Shown piece by piece: positions 11,332 through 20,503 of a stretch of DNA of 64,000 nt. Below the pieces are notes generated by a model, which was not told the DNA's origin, made no database searches, and was given only the letters and a program-made list of their open reading frames with translations. This DNA comes from a gamma proteobacterium HTCC5015 (GTDB lineage Bacteria > Pseudomonadota > Gammaproteobacteria > HTCC5015). The stretch's first letter is position 1; each line of letters opens with the position of its first letter. The position numbers were made by a program, and so were the translations under genes. The stretch is from positions 45,846-109,845 of the forward strand of contig DS990599.1 of the NCBI GenBank assembly GCA_000155715.1, in the 5' to 3' direction.

Positions 11332-11349
11332 ATCATACTCCAGTATGAT
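11332..11349. promoter_or_regulatory. palindromic operator copy 1 (ATCATACT-CC-AGTATGAT)
   Basis: Perfect 8-bp arms around a 2-bp centre, ending 58 bp before the start codon of the ELWxxDGT lipoprotein gene. The same arms recur at 12947 and 18907, and in weaker form at 18849. The arm-2-arm geometry is that of NarL/FixJ-family regulator sites (7-2-7). The right arm also contains TATGAT, a fair -10 hexamer, so the site may overlap the promoter. Confidence 0.75.
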
Positions 11350-11366: not shown

Positions 11367-11399
11367 CTCCATGATGAACTATCGATTCTCATCATGGAG
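11367..11399 (+). promoter_or_regulatory. leader hairpin masking the ribosome binding site, copy 1
   Basis: CTCCATGATGA pairs perfectly with TCATCATGGAG (11 bp, 11-base loop). The GGAG Shine-Dalgarno is inside the 3' arm and pairs with CTCC, 9 nt before the ATG at 11408. Similar hairpins of different sequence precede the two related genes. Confidence 0.65.
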
Positions 11400-11407
11400 A
11401 AATACCA

Positions 11408-12832
11408 ATGATTCGCTCTCAAACCTTAAGTGCCCATACCGCACTTATCGCTTTTCTCATTTGCGTGCTATCCGCTTGTGGTAGCGGCAGCGGTGGCAGT
11501 AACAATAGCGCCTCAACAACTCCCGCTCCCGAAACAGAAGCAGACACTCCCTCAACACCGGAGATCACATACTTTTCTGGCAATGATGGTGTGTATGGCG
11601 AGGAACTGTGGAAAACCGATGGAACGGAAGCGGGTACCGTCATGGTCAAAAACATCAACCCCGACGAGGAAGGCGTCGCACCCAACGACAGCAAACCCAA
11701 TAATTTTTTTGCCTTTAACGGAAAAACCTACTTTAGAGCCAAAACCGAAGATGAGGGCTCGGAGCTGTGGGTAACCGATGGAACAGAAGCGGGAACCTTT
11801 CTGCTAAAAGATCACATAACAGGCGCCAATTCAGGCTCGCCTAATCAATTTACGATTTACAAGAATCAGCTTTTTTACCGCGCAAAAAATGCCGATGATT
11901 TTCCCAACGACACTCTGTGGAAAACCGATGGCACGAAAGCGGGCACCACCATCGCCGTCAATATCAGTGGCCTCGACCTCTATCCCGACATCACCGTCTT
12001 TCAACAGCAGCTGGTGTTCTCAGCCAAAGACGACACCAGTGGTTCTGAAGTGTGGATCAGCGATGGAACCACGATAGGCTCTCAGTTACTTAAAGACACG
12101 AACGCTGGCAGCGACCACGGATTCCCCGCAAACTTCACGGAGTTTAATGGCGCTCTCTTTTTTGGCTCTAGTAACAACAACAGCGGACGCGCGCTCTGGA
12201 AGTCGGATGGCACCACAGCAGGTACCAGCATAGTCGTCGATCTAGGAAATGCGAACACGCTGGCCAACAACCCCCGAGACCTCACAGTGTTTAACCAGAG
12301 CCTGTACTTCGGCGCCGAGGATGGCACGGAAGGTCACGAATTATGGATAACCAACGGAAACCCTGTCGCTACAGCGGTAGTCGATGACATTCAAACAGGC
12401 ACTGGCTCTAGTGAAGCCGGCTCGTTATCGGTATTTAACGGACAGTTATTTTTCAAAGCCGACAACGGCGTTAATGGCGTGGAGCCATGGACCAGTGACG
12501 GCAACCCCAATAGCGCCACACTATTAAAAGACATCAACCCAACGGGCGACTCACAACCTAAGCTGCTTGGCGCCGTCAATGGCAAGGCCGTCTTTGTCGC
12601 CGATGACGGCGTACATGGCCGCGAGCCCTGGGTGACGGATGGCACTAACGCGGGCACAAAGCTCTTAAAAGATATCAATAACGACGCCGGGCAAGCATCC
12701 TCCCCCCAATTGATCGCCCAAAGAGGAGATGGCATTTTATTCACCGCAGAAGACAGTGCCAGCCATGTCCAGCTATGGATCACAGATGGCACAGCAGAGG
12801 GGACAAAATTACTAAAAGCATTCAACCCTTAG
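11408..12832 (+). CDS. lipoprotein with nine ELWxxDGT repeats
   Basis: A 474-residue secreted lipoprotein: N-terminal hydrophobic segment, lipobox LSAC (cysteine about residue 23), then a Gly/Ser and Pro/Thr linker. The rest is nine repeats of about 45 residues, each centred on a form of ELWKTDGTEAGT followed by a VKDI-like strand; later copies drift (EPWTSDGNPNS). The repeat family (ELWxxDGT) is known from cyanobacteria, myxobacteria and marine proteobacteria and probably builds a beta-propeller-like surface domain; its function is unknown. It shares a palindromic operator and a leader hairpin with the genes at 13023 and 18980 and is probably co-regulated with them. A terminator follows. Confidence 0.8.
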   Translation: MIRSQTLSAHTALIAFLICVLSACGSGSGGSNNSASTTPAPETEADTPSTPEITYFSGNDGVYGEELWKTDGTEAGTVMVKNINPDEEGVAPNDSKPNNFFAFNGKTYFRAKTEDEGSELWVTDGTEAGTFLLKDHITGANSGSPNQFTIYKNQLFYRAKNADDFPNDTLWKTDGTKAGTTIAVNISGLDLYPDITVFQQQLVFSAKDDTSGSEVWISDGTTIGSQLLKDTNAGSDHGFPANFTEFNGALFFGSSNNNSGRALWKSDGTTAGTSIVVDLGNANTLANNPRDLTVFNQSLYFGAEDGTEGHELWITNGNPVATAVVDDIQTGTGSSEAGSLSVFNGQLFFKADNGVNGVEPWTSDGNPNSATLLKDINPTGDSQPKLLGAVNGKAVFVADDGVHGREPWVTDGTNAGTKLLKDINNDAGQASSPQLIAQRGDGILFTAEDSASHVQLWITDGTAEGTKLLKAFNP

Positions 12833-12873
12833 TCATCATGGCTTAATGTTTAACGCTTTGATCAGCTAGCCAT

Positions 12874-12910
12874 AAAAAGCCAAAGGTGGATAAAAACCTT
12901 TGGCTTTTTT
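12874..12910 (+). terminator. intrinsic terminator
   Basis: AAAAAGCCAAAGGT and ACCTTTGGCTTTTT form a long stem with a short A-rich loop, followed by a T run. It ends the ELWxxDGT gene about 40 bp after its stop. Confidence 0.85.
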
Positions 12911-12946
12911 TATCGTCACCATCTAGCGATTACCTCATCCATCAAG

Positions 12947-12964
12947 ATCATACTTGAGTATGAT
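12947..12964. promoter_or_regulatory. palindromic operator copy 2 (ATCATACT-TG-AGTATGAT)
   Basis: Identical arms to the copy at 18907 and the same TG centre. It ends 58 bp before the ATG at 13023, the same distance as copy 1. The gap 12833-13022 otherwise contains only a terminator and the leader hairpin. Confidence 0.8.
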
Positions 12965-12988
12965 GACTTTATTGGAGCCTCTATGAAA

Positions 12989-13024
12989 ATGGCACTTATC
13001 CACCCATAAAGGAGGAAGTGCCAT
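12989..13024 (+). promoter_or_regulatory. leader hairpin enclosing the ribosome binding site and start codon, copy 2
   Basis: ATGGCACTT (12989-12997) pairs perfectly with AAGTGCCAT (13016-13024). The start codon ATG (13023) is part of the 3' arm, and the Shine-Dalgarno AAAGGAGG sits in the 18-base loop. The copy at 18949 has the same design with a changed stem sequence that still pairs. Confidence 0.7.
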
Positions 13025-16000
13025 GTTAAAAAAAGCATCCATAAAAGAACTCACCCTCATTGCCTCACTTATCACCCTAACCGCCTGTAGTAGCGGAGGC
13101 GGCGGGGATAGCAGCAATACCAATAAAGAAAGTAAAAACTCTGCGCCAGTTGCCAATAGTCAAAATATCAACCTCGACCAAGACACTGCCATCTCAATTA
13201 CTCTTACTGGCAGCGATGCAGATGGTGACGAACTGACTTACACGCTCACCAAGGCGCCGAGTAACGGCAGCCTGACAAGTGATGCACCGACCTTCACCTA
13301 CACACCCAATGCCAACTACACGGGCGAAGATCATTTTAAATTTATAGTAAACGATGGTCAGGTAGACTCACAGGAAGCCACCATTAGCTTAAACATTGCC
13401 AGCGTTAATAGTAATGCTCGCCCAGTAGCGAACCATCAAAATGTGAGTACCGACGAAAACACCGCTCTACCGATCACGCTCAGCGGCAGCGACGCCGATG
13501 GAGATAGTTTAAGCTACAGTGTATCCACACAACCTGCCAACGGCAGCTTGAGTGGCAATGCACCCAATGTCACCTATACGCCCGATATCGACTTCAGTGG
13601 CAGTGACAGTTTTAGCTTTATCGTCAACGATGGAACGGAAGCGTCTGAAGCAGCCACCGTTGCCATCAACGTTATCAGAGATAATACGGCGCCTACTGCA
13701 GTCGACCAGACCCTTAGTATCGATGAAGATACGGCCTTTTCTATTACGCTCTCTGGTAGTGACACCGACGGGGACACGCTCACGTACAACATTACCAGCG
13801 GCCCTTCCATTGGCAGCATTACTAGAACCGGCAACAACGTAACTTATACTCCCAACGCGAATGCCAATGGGTCGGACACATTCTCTTTTACAGTCAGCGA
13901 TGGTATCGCCACCTCGAGTCCCGCTGATGTCTTCATTACAGTCAACAGCGTTAACGATGCCCCGCTAGCCAATGCAAAATCCACATCGACCAACGAAGAC
14001 ACAGCGATTGCCATTAATCTCACCGGTAGCGATGTGGATGGTGACACTCTCACATTTAACGTGCGTACCCAGCCCGGAAACGGCAGCCTCAGCGGCACTG
14101 CACCCAACCTAATTTATACCCCCGGTGCCAATTTCTCCGGCAACGACAGCTTCACCTTCTACACCAGTGATAGCGAACAAAGCTCCAGTGATGCCACGGT
14201 GCAAATTCAGGTTAATGCTGTCAACGATGCTCCCCAGGCCAACGGACAAACTTTGAGCACCGATGAAGACACGCCCCTGCCGATCACGCTTAGCGGTAAC
14301 GACGCAGAGGGCGACAGCCTGACTTACAATGTCTCCACACAACCCACCAACGGCAGCTTGAGTGGTACTGCACCCAATCTGACTTATACACCCGACGCCG
14401 ACTTCAGCGGCAGTGACAGCTTTACCTTTATCGCCAACGACGGAACCACCGATTCATCACCGGCCACCGTTAACATTACCGTCAACGCCGTAAACACGCC
14501 CCCAAATGGTCATGGTCAAAACAATTTGAGCACCGATAACGCCACGCCCTTGGCGATTACCCTCACAGGTAGCGATGCCGAAGGTGACGCCTTAACGTTC
14601 ATCGTGACCCAGCAACCTGAACACGGGGCACTAAGCGGCACCGCGCCCAACCTCACTTATACCCCCGACACCAGTTTTACCGGTACGGATGAATTTCTAT
14701 TCAAAGTCAATGATGGAACCACAGACTCGCTCACATCCTACTTTGTTCGAATTGACGTCACTGCCGCCACTTATACCATTGGGGGAACGATCACTGGCCT
14801 GATCAACAGTGGACTCGAACTTGAAAATAACGGTGGCGACACTCTCGCAAGCGCTGGCAATTCCTTTGAGTTCGCCACTGAGCTGAGCAGTGGCAATAGT
14901 TATGACGTCACTGTCAGCCAAGACCCCGATCAACAAATTTGTGGCGTTGAAAATGGCAGTGGCACCGTCGCCTCTTCTGATGTGAATAATATTGAAGTGG
15001 CTTGCCGACACTGGAAAGCATCGCCAAGCCTCCTTTATTCCAGTGGTGTAATAACGCGAGATCAGGAAGTGGCGAGCGATGATGAAGGCAATGCTATGGC
15101 TGTGTGGCAAAGCAATGGAAGCACTTTAGCGCGGTATTACTCAGCCTCTAATGGGTCTTGGCAAGCAACTCGCGTCATTGATAGCGACACGTCACCATCT
15201 TACAACCCTCAAGTCGCCTTTGATGCAAACGGTAATGCCATTGCTGTGTGGGGGCAGTCCAATGGAACCAGTAATGGTGCAACGATTAATCACGATATTT
15301 GGGTGAATCACTATTCCGCTGGCAGCAATAGCTGGGGAACCGCCCAACGGATTGAATCACTGGGTGGCTCTGGTTTCAATCCTCAGATAGCCGTTGATAA
15401 CAGTGGCAATGCCGTTGTCGTCTGGCAGCAATACGGGGTAGTTGGAGGTGGAGGCGATGGTATTTACGCCAACACCTATTCGGCAGCTGACAATGCTTGG
15501 GGAAATGAGCAGATTTTGGATACCAGCAGCCTATCAGATGAAGACCCCCAAATAGCCGTTGATGCATCCGGTGTACCCTATGTGGTCTGGCAACAGGGTG
15601 GTACCTCTGGCACGAGTATTCGATCAGCATGGTATTTCGCAGCCTATGGTGCAGGGCAAGACTATCGAGATGGCTCATGGTCGACACCGGAAACCATCAG
15701 CAGCGGCACAGTATATTCAGAATCACCACAGATCGCATTTGATGGTAATGGCAATGGAATGGCCGTGTGGCGTGAACATGACGGTACTGGAGGCGACTTG
15801 TACGACATCTTCGCCGCTTCGATCACTGTCGGCAACCCCTGGGGCACTCCCCAACTGATTGAGTCCGATAACTTCGGAGAGGCACAAACGCCTCAAGTGG
15901 CCATGAGTTCAACGGGAGACGCTATTGTCGTCTGGCATCACGACTATGGTGGAGATATTGAGATCAAAGCCAATCGTTACATTTCCTCAAGTGATAGCTG

Positions 16001-16298
16001 GCAGGGTTTGATTACCCTTGAGGGTGATAACAATAGTTACTTCCCGGAAGTGGCGATGGATGACAAAGGCAACGCTATTGTTGTTTGGGAACAAAGTGGA
16101 ACCGGCGGCGCCAGTGTTCGAAGCCGCCGTTACTCTGTGGTCAACGATGCATGGGGCACGAGCGAAGAGCTTAGCGACGGAACCAATAGCAGCACGAGCC
16201 CTCAGGTGTCATTTGGCGCATCAGGTCACGCTGCTGTGGTCTACAAGGCTTTGTTCAACGGTTCCTCTCACTGGATCATGGGCAATAACTTTGATTAA
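13023..16298 (+). CDS. large lipoprotein: six cadherin-like repeats plus propeller-like C-terminal region
   Basis: A 1091-residue protein with lipobox LTAC and a Gly/Ser linker. Residues about 40-580 are six tandem domains of about 95 residues. Each starts near APVAN, contains LTGSDADGDELTYT and NGSLSGTAPN, and ends with FIVNDG, the pattern of bacterial cadherin-like/Ig domains with calcium-type Asp clusters. Next comes a GGTITGLINSGLELENNGGD domain common in marine secreted proteins. The last 420 residues hold eight copies of a P-QVA-D-GNA-VVW motif, suggesting a beta-propeller or sialidase-like fold. It is probably displayed on the surface for adhesion or polymer binding (inference). It shares operator and hairpin with the ELWxxDGT genes on either side. 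Confidence 0.82.
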   Translation: MLKKASIKELTLIASLITLTACSSGGGGDSSNTNKESKNSAPVANSQNINLDQDTAISITLTGSDADGDELTYTLTKAPSNGSLTSDAPTFTYTPNANYTGEDHFKFIVNDGQVDSQEATISLNIASVNSNARPVANHQNVSTDENTALPITLSGSDADGDSLSYSVSTQPANGSLSGNAPNVTYTPDIDFSGSDSFSFIVNDGTEASEAATVAINVIRDNTAPTAVDQTLSIDEDTAFSITLSGSDTDGDTLTYNITSGPSIGSITRTGNNVTYTPNANANGSDTFSFTVSDGIATSSPADVFITVNSVNDAPLANAKSTSTNEDTAIAINLTGSDVDGDTLTFNVRTQPGNGSLSGTAPNLIYTPGANFSGNDSFTFYTSDSEQSSSDATVQIQVNAVNDAPQANGQTLSTDEDTPLPITLSGNDAEGDSLTYNVSTQPTNGSLSGTAPNLTYTPDADFSGSDSFTFIANDGTTDSSPATVNITVNAVNTPPNGHGQNNLSTDNATPLAITLTGSDAEGDALTFIVTQQPEHGALSGTAPNLTYTPDTSFTGTDEFLFKVNDGTTDSLTSYFVRIDVTAATYTIGGTITGLINSGLELENNGGDTLASAGNSFEFATELSSGNSYDVTVSQDPDQQICGVENGSGTVASSDVNNIEVACRHWKASPSLLYSSGVITRDQEVASDDEGNAMAVWQSNGSTLARYYSASNGSWQATRVIDSDTSPSYNPQVAFDANGNAIAVWGQSNGTSNGATINHDIWVNHYSAGSNSWGTAQRIESLGGSGFNPQIAVDNSGNAVVVWQQYGVVGGGGDGIYANTYSAADNAWGNEQILDTSSLSDEDPQIAVDASGVPYVVWQQGGTSGTSIRSAWYFAAYGAGQDYRDGSWSTPETISSGTVYSESPQIAFDGNGNGMAVWREHDGTGGDLYDIFAASITVGNPWGTPQLIESDNFGEAQTPQVAMSSTGDAIVVWHHDYGGDIEIKANRYISSSDSWQGLITLEGDNNSYFPEVAMDDKGNAIVVWEQSGTGGASVRSRRYSVVNDAWGTSEELSDGTNSSTSPQVSFGASGHAAVVYKALFNGSSHWIMGNNFD

Positions 16299-16329
16299 AA
16301 AGGCCTAAATTCAATTAGGCTGAAATCCC

Positions 16330-16366
16330 AAAAAGCCTTGCAGAGTATTCTGTAAGGCTTTTTTTA
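16330..16366 (+). terminator. intrinsic terminator
   Basis: AAAAAGCCTTGCAGA and TCTGTAAGGCTTTTT pair with one G-T wobble around a 4-base loop and are followed by more T. It lies 32 bp after the stop of the cadherin-like lipoprotein gene. Confidence 0.85.
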
Positions 16367-16419
16367 TCGTCGCGATGTGGTAAAGAATAACTGTTATACA
16401 TGCCGATATTGGACTTCAC

Positions 16420-18177
16420 ATGGCAAACCACCGAATTCTCAACCGACTCCAACGCTTTCGTTTTCAGCCTCTAGAGGAAGAGGTCGAGCACGAGCGCATT
16501 ACCACGCTGGTAAAGGGCACTGTACCCCACCTGTACGGCGGGCAGCTGATACCCATATTCATCTTTTTTGTCTTCTACAGCCACGCTAGCCGAGAAACCT
16601 TGTGGGCATGGGTGTTAATTAGCCTTTTCTCTGCCTTCATTTCTGCCATTTTTGTTTACTACTACCTAAAGCACGAGCATTTATTTTCTGCCAAACAATG
16701 GGGACAGTTCATCGTCGCTTTACTGCTTATTTTGGCTCTGTGCCGAGCGGTAGCAGCACCGATGTTTATCGGCTCTGATACGTACCTGAAGGACATTGTT
16801 CTCATTATTATGATGCTGGGGGTGAGTACGGGCGGCGCCGTTGCGCTGGCCTCTTACTTGCCCGCTTGTTTTGTCTTTGTTGTACCCGTGCTCGGCACAC
16901 TCAGCTGGGCAGTATGGCAGCACGATATTGCCAATGGTGGGTTTTTAGCGATTCTAGCCCTAGCCTACGGCGCCTTATTGCTGGCTCAAGCCACTAAATT
17001 TAATCGCATTTTAGTCAGCAACATTCGACTGCGCATAGATTACGACAAAGCCTATGCCGCCATGAATCAAGCCAACGCGGCTAAGGCGCGATTTCTATCC
17101 GCCGCCAGCCATGATATTCGACAGCCACTACAAGCCATCAACTTGTTTGTAAGCGCGATCGAATCCAATGCCCGCAATAGTAATAACGGGCACTTATTCG
17201 ACAATCTCAACAACAGTGTTAGCGGCGTATCGACTCTCTTAAACCATTTGCTAGAAATCACCACCCTCGATGAAGGTGGTATTCAAGCTCATAAGAAAAA
17301 TATGGATTTGAAAGACATGCTCACCCAGCTTCACCAGCGGTTTAACGGCATGGCAAAAGAAAAAGGATTAACGCTAGAGCTCTTGACCAAAGATGCCGCA
17401 GTTCACAGCGACCCCGAATTGCTGGAGCGCATTTTATCGAACCTTATCGTCAACGCCATCAAACACACCGACTCTGGCTCCGTTGTTATTCGCTCTCGAC
17501 GCGTTGATACAGCGATAGAAGTCAGCATAGAAGATACGGGGCCTGGCATTCCAGAATCTGAGCAAGAGGGCATCTTTGAAGCCTTCTACCAACTCAACAA
17601 CCCACAACGCGACCGCTCTAAAGGGAGTGGCTTAGGCCTAGCCATTGTCAAAGGCTTTTGCGATTTGCTAGCACACCCAATCTGGCTCGAATCGGAAGTG
17701 GGGCAGGGCAGCCGCTTTTACCTCAAATTGCCACTGGCCAACGAAAACGTTTCAGAACAACGATCCGCTGCCGAACCGACCATCACACCGTGGCAACTCG
17801 ATAATACCCACGTATTGGTACTCGACGACGATCGCGCCATTCTCGAAGGCATGAACACCGTATTAGAAAAGTGGGGCTGCCACAGCCAATGCGCAGAATC
17901 ACTCGATCAGGCGCTCAAACTGTGCGAAACGCAAACACCCGATATCATCATCAGCGACTTCAATCTCAGTGGCGACCAAAACGGTTTGACATCTATCGAA
18001 GCCCTTCGAAAGCAATGCAACCGCAACATACCCGCCGTCATCATCTCGGGTGAACTCAACCACCCCGAGCTCGAGCAGGCCAAGCAGACGGGCTGGATGG
18101 TATTGAGCAAACCCGTTAAGCCCGGCGAACTGCGCACAGCGTTGAACTATGCGCGCAAACAACACAGCGAGCTATAA
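16420..18177 (+). CDS. hybrid sensor histidine kinase (6TM - HisKA - HATPase - receiver)
   Basis: A 585-residue inner membrane kinase. Residues about 42-190 form six hydrophobic segments with very short external loops, so the signal may be sensed in the membrane. The H box is SAASHDIRQPLQAI with phospho-acceptor His about 231. The ATP-binding domain shows NLIVNAIKH, EDTGPGIPE and GSGLGLAIVKG. A C-terminal receiver domain (from about 465) has LVLDDDRA and the acceptor Asp about 513 in DIIISDFNL. The 3' end overlaps the convergent response-regulator gene by 6 bp. It lies inside the lipoprotein cluster, so it probably controls those genes with that regulator. Confidence 0.9.
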   Translation: MANHRILNRLQRFRFQPLEEEVEHERITTLVKGTVPHLYGGQLIPIFIFFVFYSHASRETLWAWVLISLFSAFISAIFVYYYLKHEHLFSAKQWGQFIVALLLILALCRAVAAPMFIGSDTYLKDIVLIIMMLGVSTGGAVALASYLPACFVFVVPVLGTLSWAVWQHDIANGGFLAILALAYGALLLAQATKFNRILVSNIRLRIDYDKAYAAMNQANAAKARFLSAASHDIRQPLQAINLFVSAIESNARNSNNGHLFDNLNNSVSGVSTLLNHLLEITTLDEGGIQAHKKNMDLKDMLTQLHQRFNGMAKEKGLTLELLTKDAAVHSDPELLERILSNLIVNAIKHTDSGSVVIRSRRVDTAIEVSIEDTGPGIPESEQEGIFEAFYQLNNPQRDRSKGSGLGLAIVKGFCDLLAHPIWLESEVGQGSRFYLKLPLANENVSEQRSAAEPTITPWQLDNTHVLVLDDDRAILEGMNTVLEKWGCHSQCAESLDQALKLCETQTPDIIISDFNLSGDQNGLTSIEALRKQCNRNIPAVIISGELNHPELEQAKQTGWMVLSKPVKPGELRTALNYARKQHSEL

Positions 18178-18816
18178 AAGCCCGGCGCGCTCAGCATAGC
18201 GTACGCACTCTAAGCGATTGCTCACTTCAAAGGCCTGAAAGAGCACCTGACCGTGAGATTTAACCGTGTGCTCTGAAATACTGAGCACTTGGGCAATTTC
18301 CCGATTGCTGCAACCATCGCGCATCAAACGCAGCACATCGAGCTGGCGAGGCGTAATTTGATAGCGCTTAGCCACTCTTTCGATATCGTTCTCAGGCGCA
18401 TCGCTAGGCATGGCTTGCAACTTATCCACCATGCCCGCTGGCAAGTAGGGCTCGCCCTCTAGGGCGCGCTGAATAATCGAAACAATGTCTTGAGTCTCTA
18501 ACGCCTTGGGCACAAAGCCCATGGCGCCCGCATCCAATGCGCGTCGAATGGCCCACAGATCCTCTACTGCCGACATCACCAACACTGGGATCATCAGCCC
18601 CCGTTGAAACAGCGCTTGAATAAAAGCCTGACCATCGAGCCCAGGCATTTGTAAATCGGTCAGCACAAGGTCTATATCGCCGTGCTCTTCCAAAGCGCCC
18701 AGCGCGGACTCCACATCGTAGGCACTCACGACGCGGTGTCCCACACTCGGCTGCTGCAACACGGCGCGCAAGCCCTCGGCAAACAGCTGGTGATCGTCCA
18801 AATGTAAGATATTCAT
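18172..18816 (-). CDS. NarL/FixJ-family response regulator with LuxR-type HTH
   Basis: A 214-residue regulator. The receiver domain has ILHLDDHQLFAEGL, acceptor Asp54 in LVLTDLQMPGLDG and the conserved Lys in GFVPKALE. The C-terminal LuxR/GerE helix-turn-helix is ITPRQLDVLRLMRDG, then SNREIAQVLSISEHTVKSH. It is the natural partner of the adjacent hybrid kinase. Family members bind palindromes with 7-bp arms and a 2-bp centre, which matches the operator found before three lipoprotein genes. A degenerate copy 33 bp upstream of its own start suggests autoregulation. A GGAGGGAAG sequence lies upstream of the ATG. Confidence 0.92.
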   Translation of the reverse strand: MNILHLDDHQLFAEGLRAVLQQPSVGHRVVSAYDVESALGALEEHGDIDLVLTDLQMPGLDGQAFIQALFQRGLMIPVLVMSAVEDLWAIRRALDAGAMGFVPKALETQDIVSIIQRALEGEPYLPAGMVDKLQAMPSDAPENDIERVAKRYQITPRQLDVLRLMRDGCSNREIAQVLSISEHTVKSHGQVLFQAFEVSNRLECVRYAERAGLL

Positions 18817-18848
18817 ACGACCATTATCCCTTTAGAGGACTTCCCTCC

Positions 18849-18866
18849 ATCACACTAAAGTATGAA
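18849..18866. promoter_or_regulatory. degenerate palindromic operator upstream of the response regulator
   Basis: ATCACACT-AA-AGTATGAA matches 14 of the 16 arm positions of the operator at 11332, 12947 and 18907. It lies 33 bp before the response-regulator ATG on the minus strand and 40 bp from the intact site at 18907. It may mediate autoregulation or add to the site of the divergent gene. Confidence 0.5.
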
Positions 18867-18906
18867 AATCAGGCCAACGGCGCAAACATTTAAGGTCGGC
18901 GACAAA

Positions 18907-18924
18907 ATCATACTTGAGTATGAT
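18907..18924. promoter_or_regulatory. palindromic operator copy 3 (ATCATACT-TG-AGTATGAT)
   Basis: Identical to copy 2 over all 18 bases and ending 55 bp before the ATG at 18980. The three intact copies keep almost the same distance to their start codons, which argues for a functional promoter element. Confidence 0.8.
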
Positions 18925-18948
18925 GCACTTTTTTGGCGTTGTCCGAAG

Positions 18949-18981
18949 ATGGCATTACATCCATCACGGAGGAAATGCCAT
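18949..18981 (+). promoter_or_regulatory. leader hairpin enclosing the ribosome binding site and start codon, copy 3
   Basis: ATGGCATT (18949-18956) pairs perfectly with AATGCCAT (18974-18981), which contains the first two bases of the ATG at 18980. The Shine-Dalgarno GGAGG is in the 17-base loop. The stem differs from copy 2 but both arms changed together, so pairing is kept. Confidence 0.7.
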
Positions 18982-20503
18982 GTTCATACACCACCACCCC
19001 CTTTTTAGAAGCTCTACCAAAGGCATCGCTGTTCTCATTGCCATTGCCGCACTGACTGCCTGTGGCGGCAGTGGTGGTAGCTCCAATGCGGGCGCCGAAC
19101 CCTCTCCTACACCTGATCCCGCACCAGACCCCGAGGAAAACACCCCTCCCGTGGCTTATTTTTCTGCCGACGACGGCGTGCACGGCTACGAGTTATGGAA
19201 GACAGACGGCACTGCCGAAGGCACGGTGATGGTGAAGGACATTGATGTAGATTTCGTACCAGAGCTCTCCTCCACCTTGGCAATCAAAAAGACCCCAGCG
19301 GCGGCAGGCCCCATCGGCAGCGACCCGTCCGACTTTACCACTATCGGCCAACGCACTTACTTTATTGCCGAAACCGAGAGTCACGGCGCCGAGCTTTGGG
19401 TGACCGACGGTACAGAAGCAGGCACTACCTTGGTAAAAGACAGCAAGCCTGGCGCTGATGATGGCCTCACAAAGATCCTCGGTACCGTGGGCGACAAACT
19501 GTTATTAGCCAGTGTCGTCGATACCAGTACTTACCCCGAGGGCAGCCTGTGGATTTCCGACGGCACAGAAGCGGGCACGGTGTTTTTAGCCGACTTAATC
19601 ACGGTCTACTCGGGTGTTTCTCAAGTATTCACTCTGGGCAGCACCACCCTTATTAGTGCCAACAGCGAGACCAAAAGCGGCAAGCTCTGGATCACCGATG
19701 GCACCCCCGCAGGCACTCAAGCCATTGATGGCAGCAGCGGTCTTAACTCTGCCTCGAACGGCATTCGCCTAGGCGACAAGGTGTATTTTATCGGAAACAC
19801 CGATACTCACGGCTCAGAACTCTGGGTCAGCGATGGTACCGAGGCGGGCACGCAACTGGTGAAAGACATCAACTCGGGTTCGAGTGGCAGTAATCTCTAC
19901 CGCTTCACTGTTATGGACGGCAAGCTCTACTTTAAGGCTAGCGATGGCACGCATGGCGCCGAGCTGTGGACATCCGACGGCACTGAGGCGGGCACGCAAC
20001 TGGTAAATGACATTAATATCGGCATTCAAAATGGATTCACTTCAACGCCTCTCGCCCATCTCGGCCAGCTATTTTTCCGAGGCGATGACGGCGTCAACGG
20101 TAATCAGCTGTGGGTCAGCGATGGCAGCGAAGCGGGTACCGTTGAACGAGAAATCAATACTACGGGCCCCGCCTATGTGAGTGGACTGACCGCCGTCGGC
20201 GCATCGGTTGTATTCAGTGCCGATGATGGCATTCACGGTGCTGAGGTTTGGATCAGTGATGGCACCGAAGCGGGAACACAACTGTTAAAAGATATTGTCG
20301 TACCCGATGGCAGCTCGACCAGAGAAGGCTCTTACCCCACCCAGTTTATATCGTTAGATAGTAAGGCCGTGTTTTTTGCCCAAACTGCCGATGGCGAGGG
20401 CAACCATTACTACCAGCCTTGGGTCACCGATGGCACAGCAGAAGGGACTCAACTGATTAAAACCATCAACCCTAACGGCGACGCGGTCAATGCTCCCATC
20501 TAA
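18980..20503 (+). CDS. lipoprotein with nine ELWxxDGT repeats, second paralogue
   Basis: A 507-residue secreted lipoprotein: signal peptide, lipobox LTAC, then a Gly/Ser and a Pro/Asp-rich linker. It carries nine repeats around ELWKTDGTAEGT to QPWVTDGTAEGT, each about 45-50 residues and better conserved than in the copy at 11408. Most repeats carry DGTEAGT followed by LVKDI, and many an acidic DDGVHG or similar turn that could bind calcium (inference). An in-frame ATG at 18914 would run through the operator, so ATG 18980 with its GGAGG is preferred. It is the third gene of the operator/hairpin set. Confidence 0.82.
   Translation: MFIHHHPLFRSSTKGIAVLIAIAALTACGGSGGSSNAGAEPSPTPDPAPDPEENTPPVAYFSADDGVHGYELWKTDGTAEGTVMVKDIDVDFVPELSSTLAIKKTPAAAGPIGSDPSDFTTIGQRTYFIAETESHGAELWVTDGTEAGTTLVKDSKPGADDGLTKILGTVGDKLLLASVVDTSTYPEGSLWISDGTEAGTVFLADLITVYSGVSQVFTLGSTTLISANSETKSGKLWITDGTPAGTQAIDGSSGLNSASNGIRLGDKVYFIGNTDTHGSELWVSDGTEAGTQLVKDINSGSSGSNLYRFTVMDGKLYFKASDGTHGAELWTSDGTEAGTQLVNDINIGIQNGFTSTPLAHLGQLFFRGDDGVNGNQLWVSDGSEAGTVEREINTTGPAYVSGLTAVGASVVFSADDGIHGAEVWISDGTEAGTQLLKDIVVPDGSSTREGSYPTQFISLDSKAVFFAQTADGEGNHYYQPWVTDGTAEGTQLIKTINPNGDAVNAPI

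Follow-up and report, generated by a model that had tools for sequence, protein, structure and literature searches.

The window analyzed is a 64,000-nucleotide stretch of contig DS990599.1 from the gamma proteobacterium HTCC5015. It carries three lipoprotein genes on the forward strand. Gene 1 (11408..12832, +) encodes ELWxxDGT repeats (TIGR04534, 404 bits) and has the lipobox LSAC in its translation. Gene 3 (18980..20503, +) encodes repeats of the same type (TIGR04534, 392 bits), and its product is 42% identical to that of gene 1. Gene 2 (13023..16298, +) encodes cadherin-like/tandem-95 repeats (PF17963, NF012211) and has the lipobox LTAC. A terminator with a 14-bp stem and a T run (12874..12912, +) lies between gene 1 and the leader of gene 2. 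Within gene 1 itself, a terminator-like stem with a T-rich tail occurs in the signal-peptide region (11427-11447, +). Another lipoprotein gene of the genome, its third with ELWxxDGT repeats, starts at an extreme contig end (G000:C24, last 1.5 kb), with its promoter beyond the contig.

Pfam identifies two regulatory genes at the locus: a hybrid histidine kinase with a membrane N-terminus (16420..18177, +), for which the nearest NCBIfam model is the NahK/ErcS family, below cut-off, and a LuxR-type response regulator (18172..18816, -). The kinase gene is convergent with the regulator gene and overlaps it. No terminator was detected on the + strand between the kinase gene and leader 3, and none was found between leader 1 and the co-directional transporter gene that precedes it.

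A genome-wide search for the palindrome TCATACTNNAGTATGA with up to two mismatches found four copies in the 2.63-Mb genome, all in this locus and none elsewhere in the assembly. The four operators precede the three lipoprotein genes and the regulator gene. Operator 1 (11333..11348, +; TCATACTCCAGTATGA) begins 17 nt past the stop of the transporter gene. Operators 2 (12948..12963, +) and 3 (18908..18923, +) share the sequence TCATACTTGAGTATGA. Operator 4 (18850..18865, -) has one mismatch and belongs to the regulator's own promoter, which has no start stem.

The kinase and regulator genes sit side by side in most of the homologous loci examined. Several regulator homologues of other genomes also have operator-like sites with an AGTATGA end, either in front of them or next to them. 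From this conservation and the operator at the regulator gene itself, we infer that the regulator is the likely operator-binding protein, presumably as an activator. Searches of 85,000 species genomes (best 36%) and 369 genomes of the class (best about 44%) gave no close relative of the regulator, and in the family genomes that were searched nothing reached the threshold. One-mismatch operators across 143 related genomes occur mostly at chance level. Orthologous leaders were found in none of the 143 related, 369 class and 85,000 species genomes, and start stems are absent at regulator targets in other genomes. An operator of the same type precedes a Flp-pilin-like gene in one other genome (G336) and a gene for a large repeat-like protein in another (G219), which suggests that surface or secreted proteins are frequent targets of this regulator family.

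Each lipoprotein start has a perfect stem, with no G-U pairs in any of the three. Stem 1 (11367..11399, +) has arms CTCCATGATGA/TCATCATGGAG at 11367-11377 and 11389-11399, forming 11 bp around a loop of 11. Stem 2 (12989..13024, +) has arms ATGGCACTT/AAGTGCCAT at 12989-12997 and 13016-13024 (9 bp, loop 18), and stem 3 (18949..18981, +) has arms ATGGCATT/AATGCCAT at 18949-18956 and 18974-18981 (8 bp, loop 17). Folded alone, the minimal hairpins 1, 2 and 3 have free energies of -16.1, -16.4 and -18.8 kcal/mol, with z-scores of -4.3, -4.0 and -4.7 against dinucleotide shuffles. The stem sizes and coordinates given in a preliminary description of this DNA are thus confirmed, with folds far better than those of shuffled sequence. 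Its placement of the Shine-Dalgarno sequence (SD) of leader 1 in the 3' arm is also correct (GGAG, 11396-11399).

For stems 2 and 3, the same description put the ATG in the arm and the SD free in the loop. The first part stands, since both 3' arms terminate in the AT of the start codon. The second does not: in the predicted folds, the SDs of leaders 2 (AGGAGG, 13010-13015) and 3 (GGAGG, 18968-18972; partly paired) pair with a UCC within the large loop, which leaves most of the initiation region closed in these two leaders. Predicted folds and opening energies agree that, in long RNA of all three leaders, a stem closes the SD, the start codon or both. The window has no match above the Rfam gathering score to a known riboswitch or other RNA family.

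To set these stems against background, we called 355 gene starts with a simple ORF/SD rule along 410 kb of this contig and counted perfect stems of at least 8 bp with the 3' arm within the ribosome-binding region. Eleven starts qualified, three of them being stems 1-3. Among the other 352 starts, 8 (2.3%) have such a stem, and these 8 count a terminator-like stem and some doubtful starts among them. A length of 11 bp is seen in stem 1 alone. Because leaders 2 and 3 clearly resemble each other, they were counted as a single event; the joint chance is then roughly 1e-4, so the three stems exceed the background. We also inspected strong stems at six other starts of the contig (133701, 117453, 109790, 355283, 405110 and 77949); at least one is a terminator and none has an operator beside it. 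The stem at 133701 (G000:C29), outside the window, has 8 bp running up to the ATG (CGCTTTCT/AGAAAGCG, loop 14). It precedes a secreted-looking protein and lies just past a terminator-like stem of the preceding gene. Within the window, the claim that no other start has such a structure holds for clear starts.

The stems had also been described as conserved by structure rather than sequence, with both arms of stems 2 and 3 changing together. This is right for stem 1, which is unrelated in letters to the other two and pairs in a different register. Stems 2 and 3, however, are near-copies: 7 of 8 pairs are identical, one shows a compensatory change from C-G to T-A, and stem 3 lacks one terminal T-A pair that stem 2 has. 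The joint change of both arms is therefore real for a single pair.

We located promoters with an approximate sigma-70 -10 matrix, using an ungapped index in which the first base of the operator is 0. All four promoters have their predicted -10 box at index 37-42: CATGAT (11370..11375, +) for gene 1, GAAAAT (12985..12990, +) for gene 2, GAAGAT (18945..18950, +) for gene 3 and GATAAT (18823-18828, -) for the regulator gene. Those of genes 1-3 are weak. Taken together, the four promoters have their best common -10 position at index 37 (P=0.001 against shuffles). Near regulator homologues in other genomes, 12 sites picked for where they lie and for resembling the operator show a peak at 37-38 (P=0.003, ±1 window). 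Both P values are approximate, as the sites were collected in the course of the analysis. Two further sites in other genomes have TATAAT and TAATAT at index 38. With the -10 box at this offset, the operator centre lies near -42, as in a class II promoter of a LuxR/NarL-family response regulator. For the related activator CrbR, the box spans -52 to -36 relative to the acs start (PMC5715377). The TATGAT of the operator was considered as a -10 box and rejected, as it has no matching -35. Where an SD would normally lie, the regulator gene has nothing resembling one. Its -10 box ends at 18823, which would put the predicted start on or beside the A of the ATG, so the mRNA may lack a leader.

The -10 offset shared here and in promoters of the regulator family places the predicted start at the end of the 5' arm. 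The starts are predicted at about 11382, 12997 and 18957 for genes 1, 2 and 3, against 5' arms that end at 11377, 12997 and 18956. Regulator-driven mRNA would therefore lack the 5' arm, with only its last base left in leader 2. The predicted leaders are 23-26 nt long. In leaders this short, the 5' arm of any stem over the ribosome-binding site falls near the start, so the overlap of promoter and stem follows from promoter position and is not independent proof.

We then computed the cost of opening positions -13 to +3 around the start codon. With both arms present, it is 12.1, 18.9 and 15.7 kcal/mol in leaders 1, 2 and 3. For RNA starting at index 46-51, it falls to 4.7-4.9, 7.1-7.4 and 4.7-4.8 kcal/mol. 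These costs predict that RNA from upstream genes is closed and that regulator-driven RNA is open. Leader 2 also contains a small frame, MKMALIHP* (12983-13009, +), with its own SD (GGAG, 12974-12977), which ends beside the SD of gene 2 and has no counterpart in leaders 1 and 3. As it begins upstream of the predicted start, it would be carried by read-through RNA only.

We propose that the stems are promoter-nested hairpins that occlude the ribosome site and mute read-through RNA, a reading to which we give about an even chance. The phosphorylated LuxR-type regulator would bind the operator, whose centre lies some 42 bp before the start, and activate a promoter with a -10 box that overlaps the 5' arm of the stem or borders on it. 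The resulting mRNA would start at the end of that arm, without it, and be freely translated from its short leader. RNA derived from upstream would have both arms, tie up its SD and start codon in a stable stem and go untranslated. For leader 1, such RNA would come from read-through of the transporter gene, and for leader 3 from the kinase gene transcript, running antisense through the regulator gene. The terminator at 12874-12912 precedes leader 2, so stem 2 would be only a second safeguard there. The lipoproteins would then be made only when the two-component system fires. Binding by this regulator, the start sites, the amount of read-through and the silencing in the cell are inferred.

The most durable alternative is that the stems have no function. 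Leaders 2 and 3 would be copies of one promoter-leader unit, their stem arising in part where the ATGG after the -10 box meets the CCATG of the start, and stem 1 would be a coincidence. The stemless regulator promoter also has ATGG after its -10 box, so about four pairs of stems 2 and 3 come at no cost. By the count above, stems of 8 bp or more occur at about 2% of starts, and there are no orthologues showing conservation. This account has more difficulty with the 11-bp stem unequalled among 355 starts, with z-scores of -4 to -4.7 and with pairing in stems 2 and 3 that survives a two-sided change. We consider it rather unlikely.

We rate as distinctly improbable the view that the main mRNA starts upstream of the stem, which is then opened by CsrA/RsmA, an sRNA, temperature or a leader peptide. 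The entire initiation region is indeed predicted to be closed in long RNA, as this view expects, but in the scan the + strand of the leaders gave no -35/-10 pair and thus no promoter starting upstream of the stems, and the -10 offset of the regulator family has the message begin where the 5' arm ends. The individual signals, most of them raised in the preliminary description, fare no better. The genome does encode csrA (PF02599, 88.5 bits, C25:15542-15697); CsrA/RsmA sites are GGA motifs in short apical hairpin loops, usually more than one, and here each of the three predicted folds has its GGA motifs paired, with the main mRNA predicted to lack the stem. An RNA thermometer opens within the growth range, and the long forms still need 9-14 kcal/mol to open at 55 °C. 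An sRNA that opens the leader finds little support, as the predicted main mRNA start excludes the stem. Coupling to a leader peptide would draw on the small frame of leader 2, with its SD and its end beside the main SD; we rejected it because leaders 1 and 3 have no plausible frame. 

The description had further suggested a second, translational layer, with coupling to a kinase-dependent signal among its possible forms. A layer tied to the kinase-dependent promoter is plausible, though not as a switch inside the regulated message, from which the predicted start removes the 5' arm. The stem is probably a block on messages from other promoters instead.

Action of the inverted repeats as DNA, with a second regulator binding a dyad across the -10 box and early transcribed sequence to repress, is very improbable: dyads straddle the predicted start in all three promoters, but stem 1 has no sequence in common with stems 2 and 3, the arm spacing varies, no further copy of the repeat of stems 2 and 3, in the form searched for, turned up in the genome, and the regulator's own promoter has no dyad.

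If silencing of read-through RNA is the role of the stems, one regulator would license both transcription and translation by the choice of message start, and read-through RNA would be made yet be unusable. Promoter-nested start hairpins on all three lipoprotein targets of a chromosomal two-component system would then point to a means, perhaps overlooked, by which tightly closed regulons disregard transcription from their neighbours. The case also advises caution: hairpins in a putative leader should be placed relative to the promoter before they are called mRNA switches.

To our knowledge, the examples on record of translation licensed by the message start are mostly phage T4 genes and mobile elements. 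A literature search on bacterial long-transcript isoforms returned no useful precedent. In the transposase leaders of IS10 and IS50, read-through RNA folds the start site away and RNA from the element's own promoter does not; those are mobile elements, whereas the genes here are regulated host lipoprotein genes. The CrbS/CrbR (MxtR/ErdR) regulon likewise pairs a hybrid kinase with a LuxR-type regulator and has an inverted-repeat box just upstream of the -35 (PMC5715377). It differs in kinase input domain, operator and targets, which are acetate genes, and the passages of that paper drawn on here report no start stems. The RNA thermometer of Yersinia yopN similarly combines two transcript starts with a hairpin over the SD and start codon (PMC8612567). 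Its hairpin is in both transcripts and melts with heat, unlike the stems here, which would be in the long RNA only and are closed by calculation.

The closest parallels are in T4. In genes e, soc and 49 and the I-TevI-type endonuclease genes, a stem shuts the initiation region of the long transcripts made early, and a promoter used late, inside the 5' strand of the stem, produces a short, well translated mRNA (PMC3014915, PMC2988022). Lysozyme is reduced about 100-fold on the long RNA, and the promoter-in-stem design has been shown experimentally for gene e and I-TevI (PMC3014915, PMC2988022). As in the leaders of T4 e, soc, 49, I-TevI/II/III and segB and of Aeh1 mobE, the stems at this locus would close the SD, the start codon or both in long RNA, and a short mRNA from the gene's own promoter would escape, here by prediction. 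Unlike those leaders, they belong to a chromosomal two-component regulon with activator-dependent class II promoters, three targets, two unrelated stem sequences and predicted starts. We tentatively suggest, with a little under even confidence, that each lipoprotein promoter of this regulon is nested in a start-occluding stem, that a phage-style block was adopted or re-evolved regulon-wide through the unrelated sequences of stem 1 and stems 2 and 3, and that the regulator would thereby set translational competence as well as transcription.
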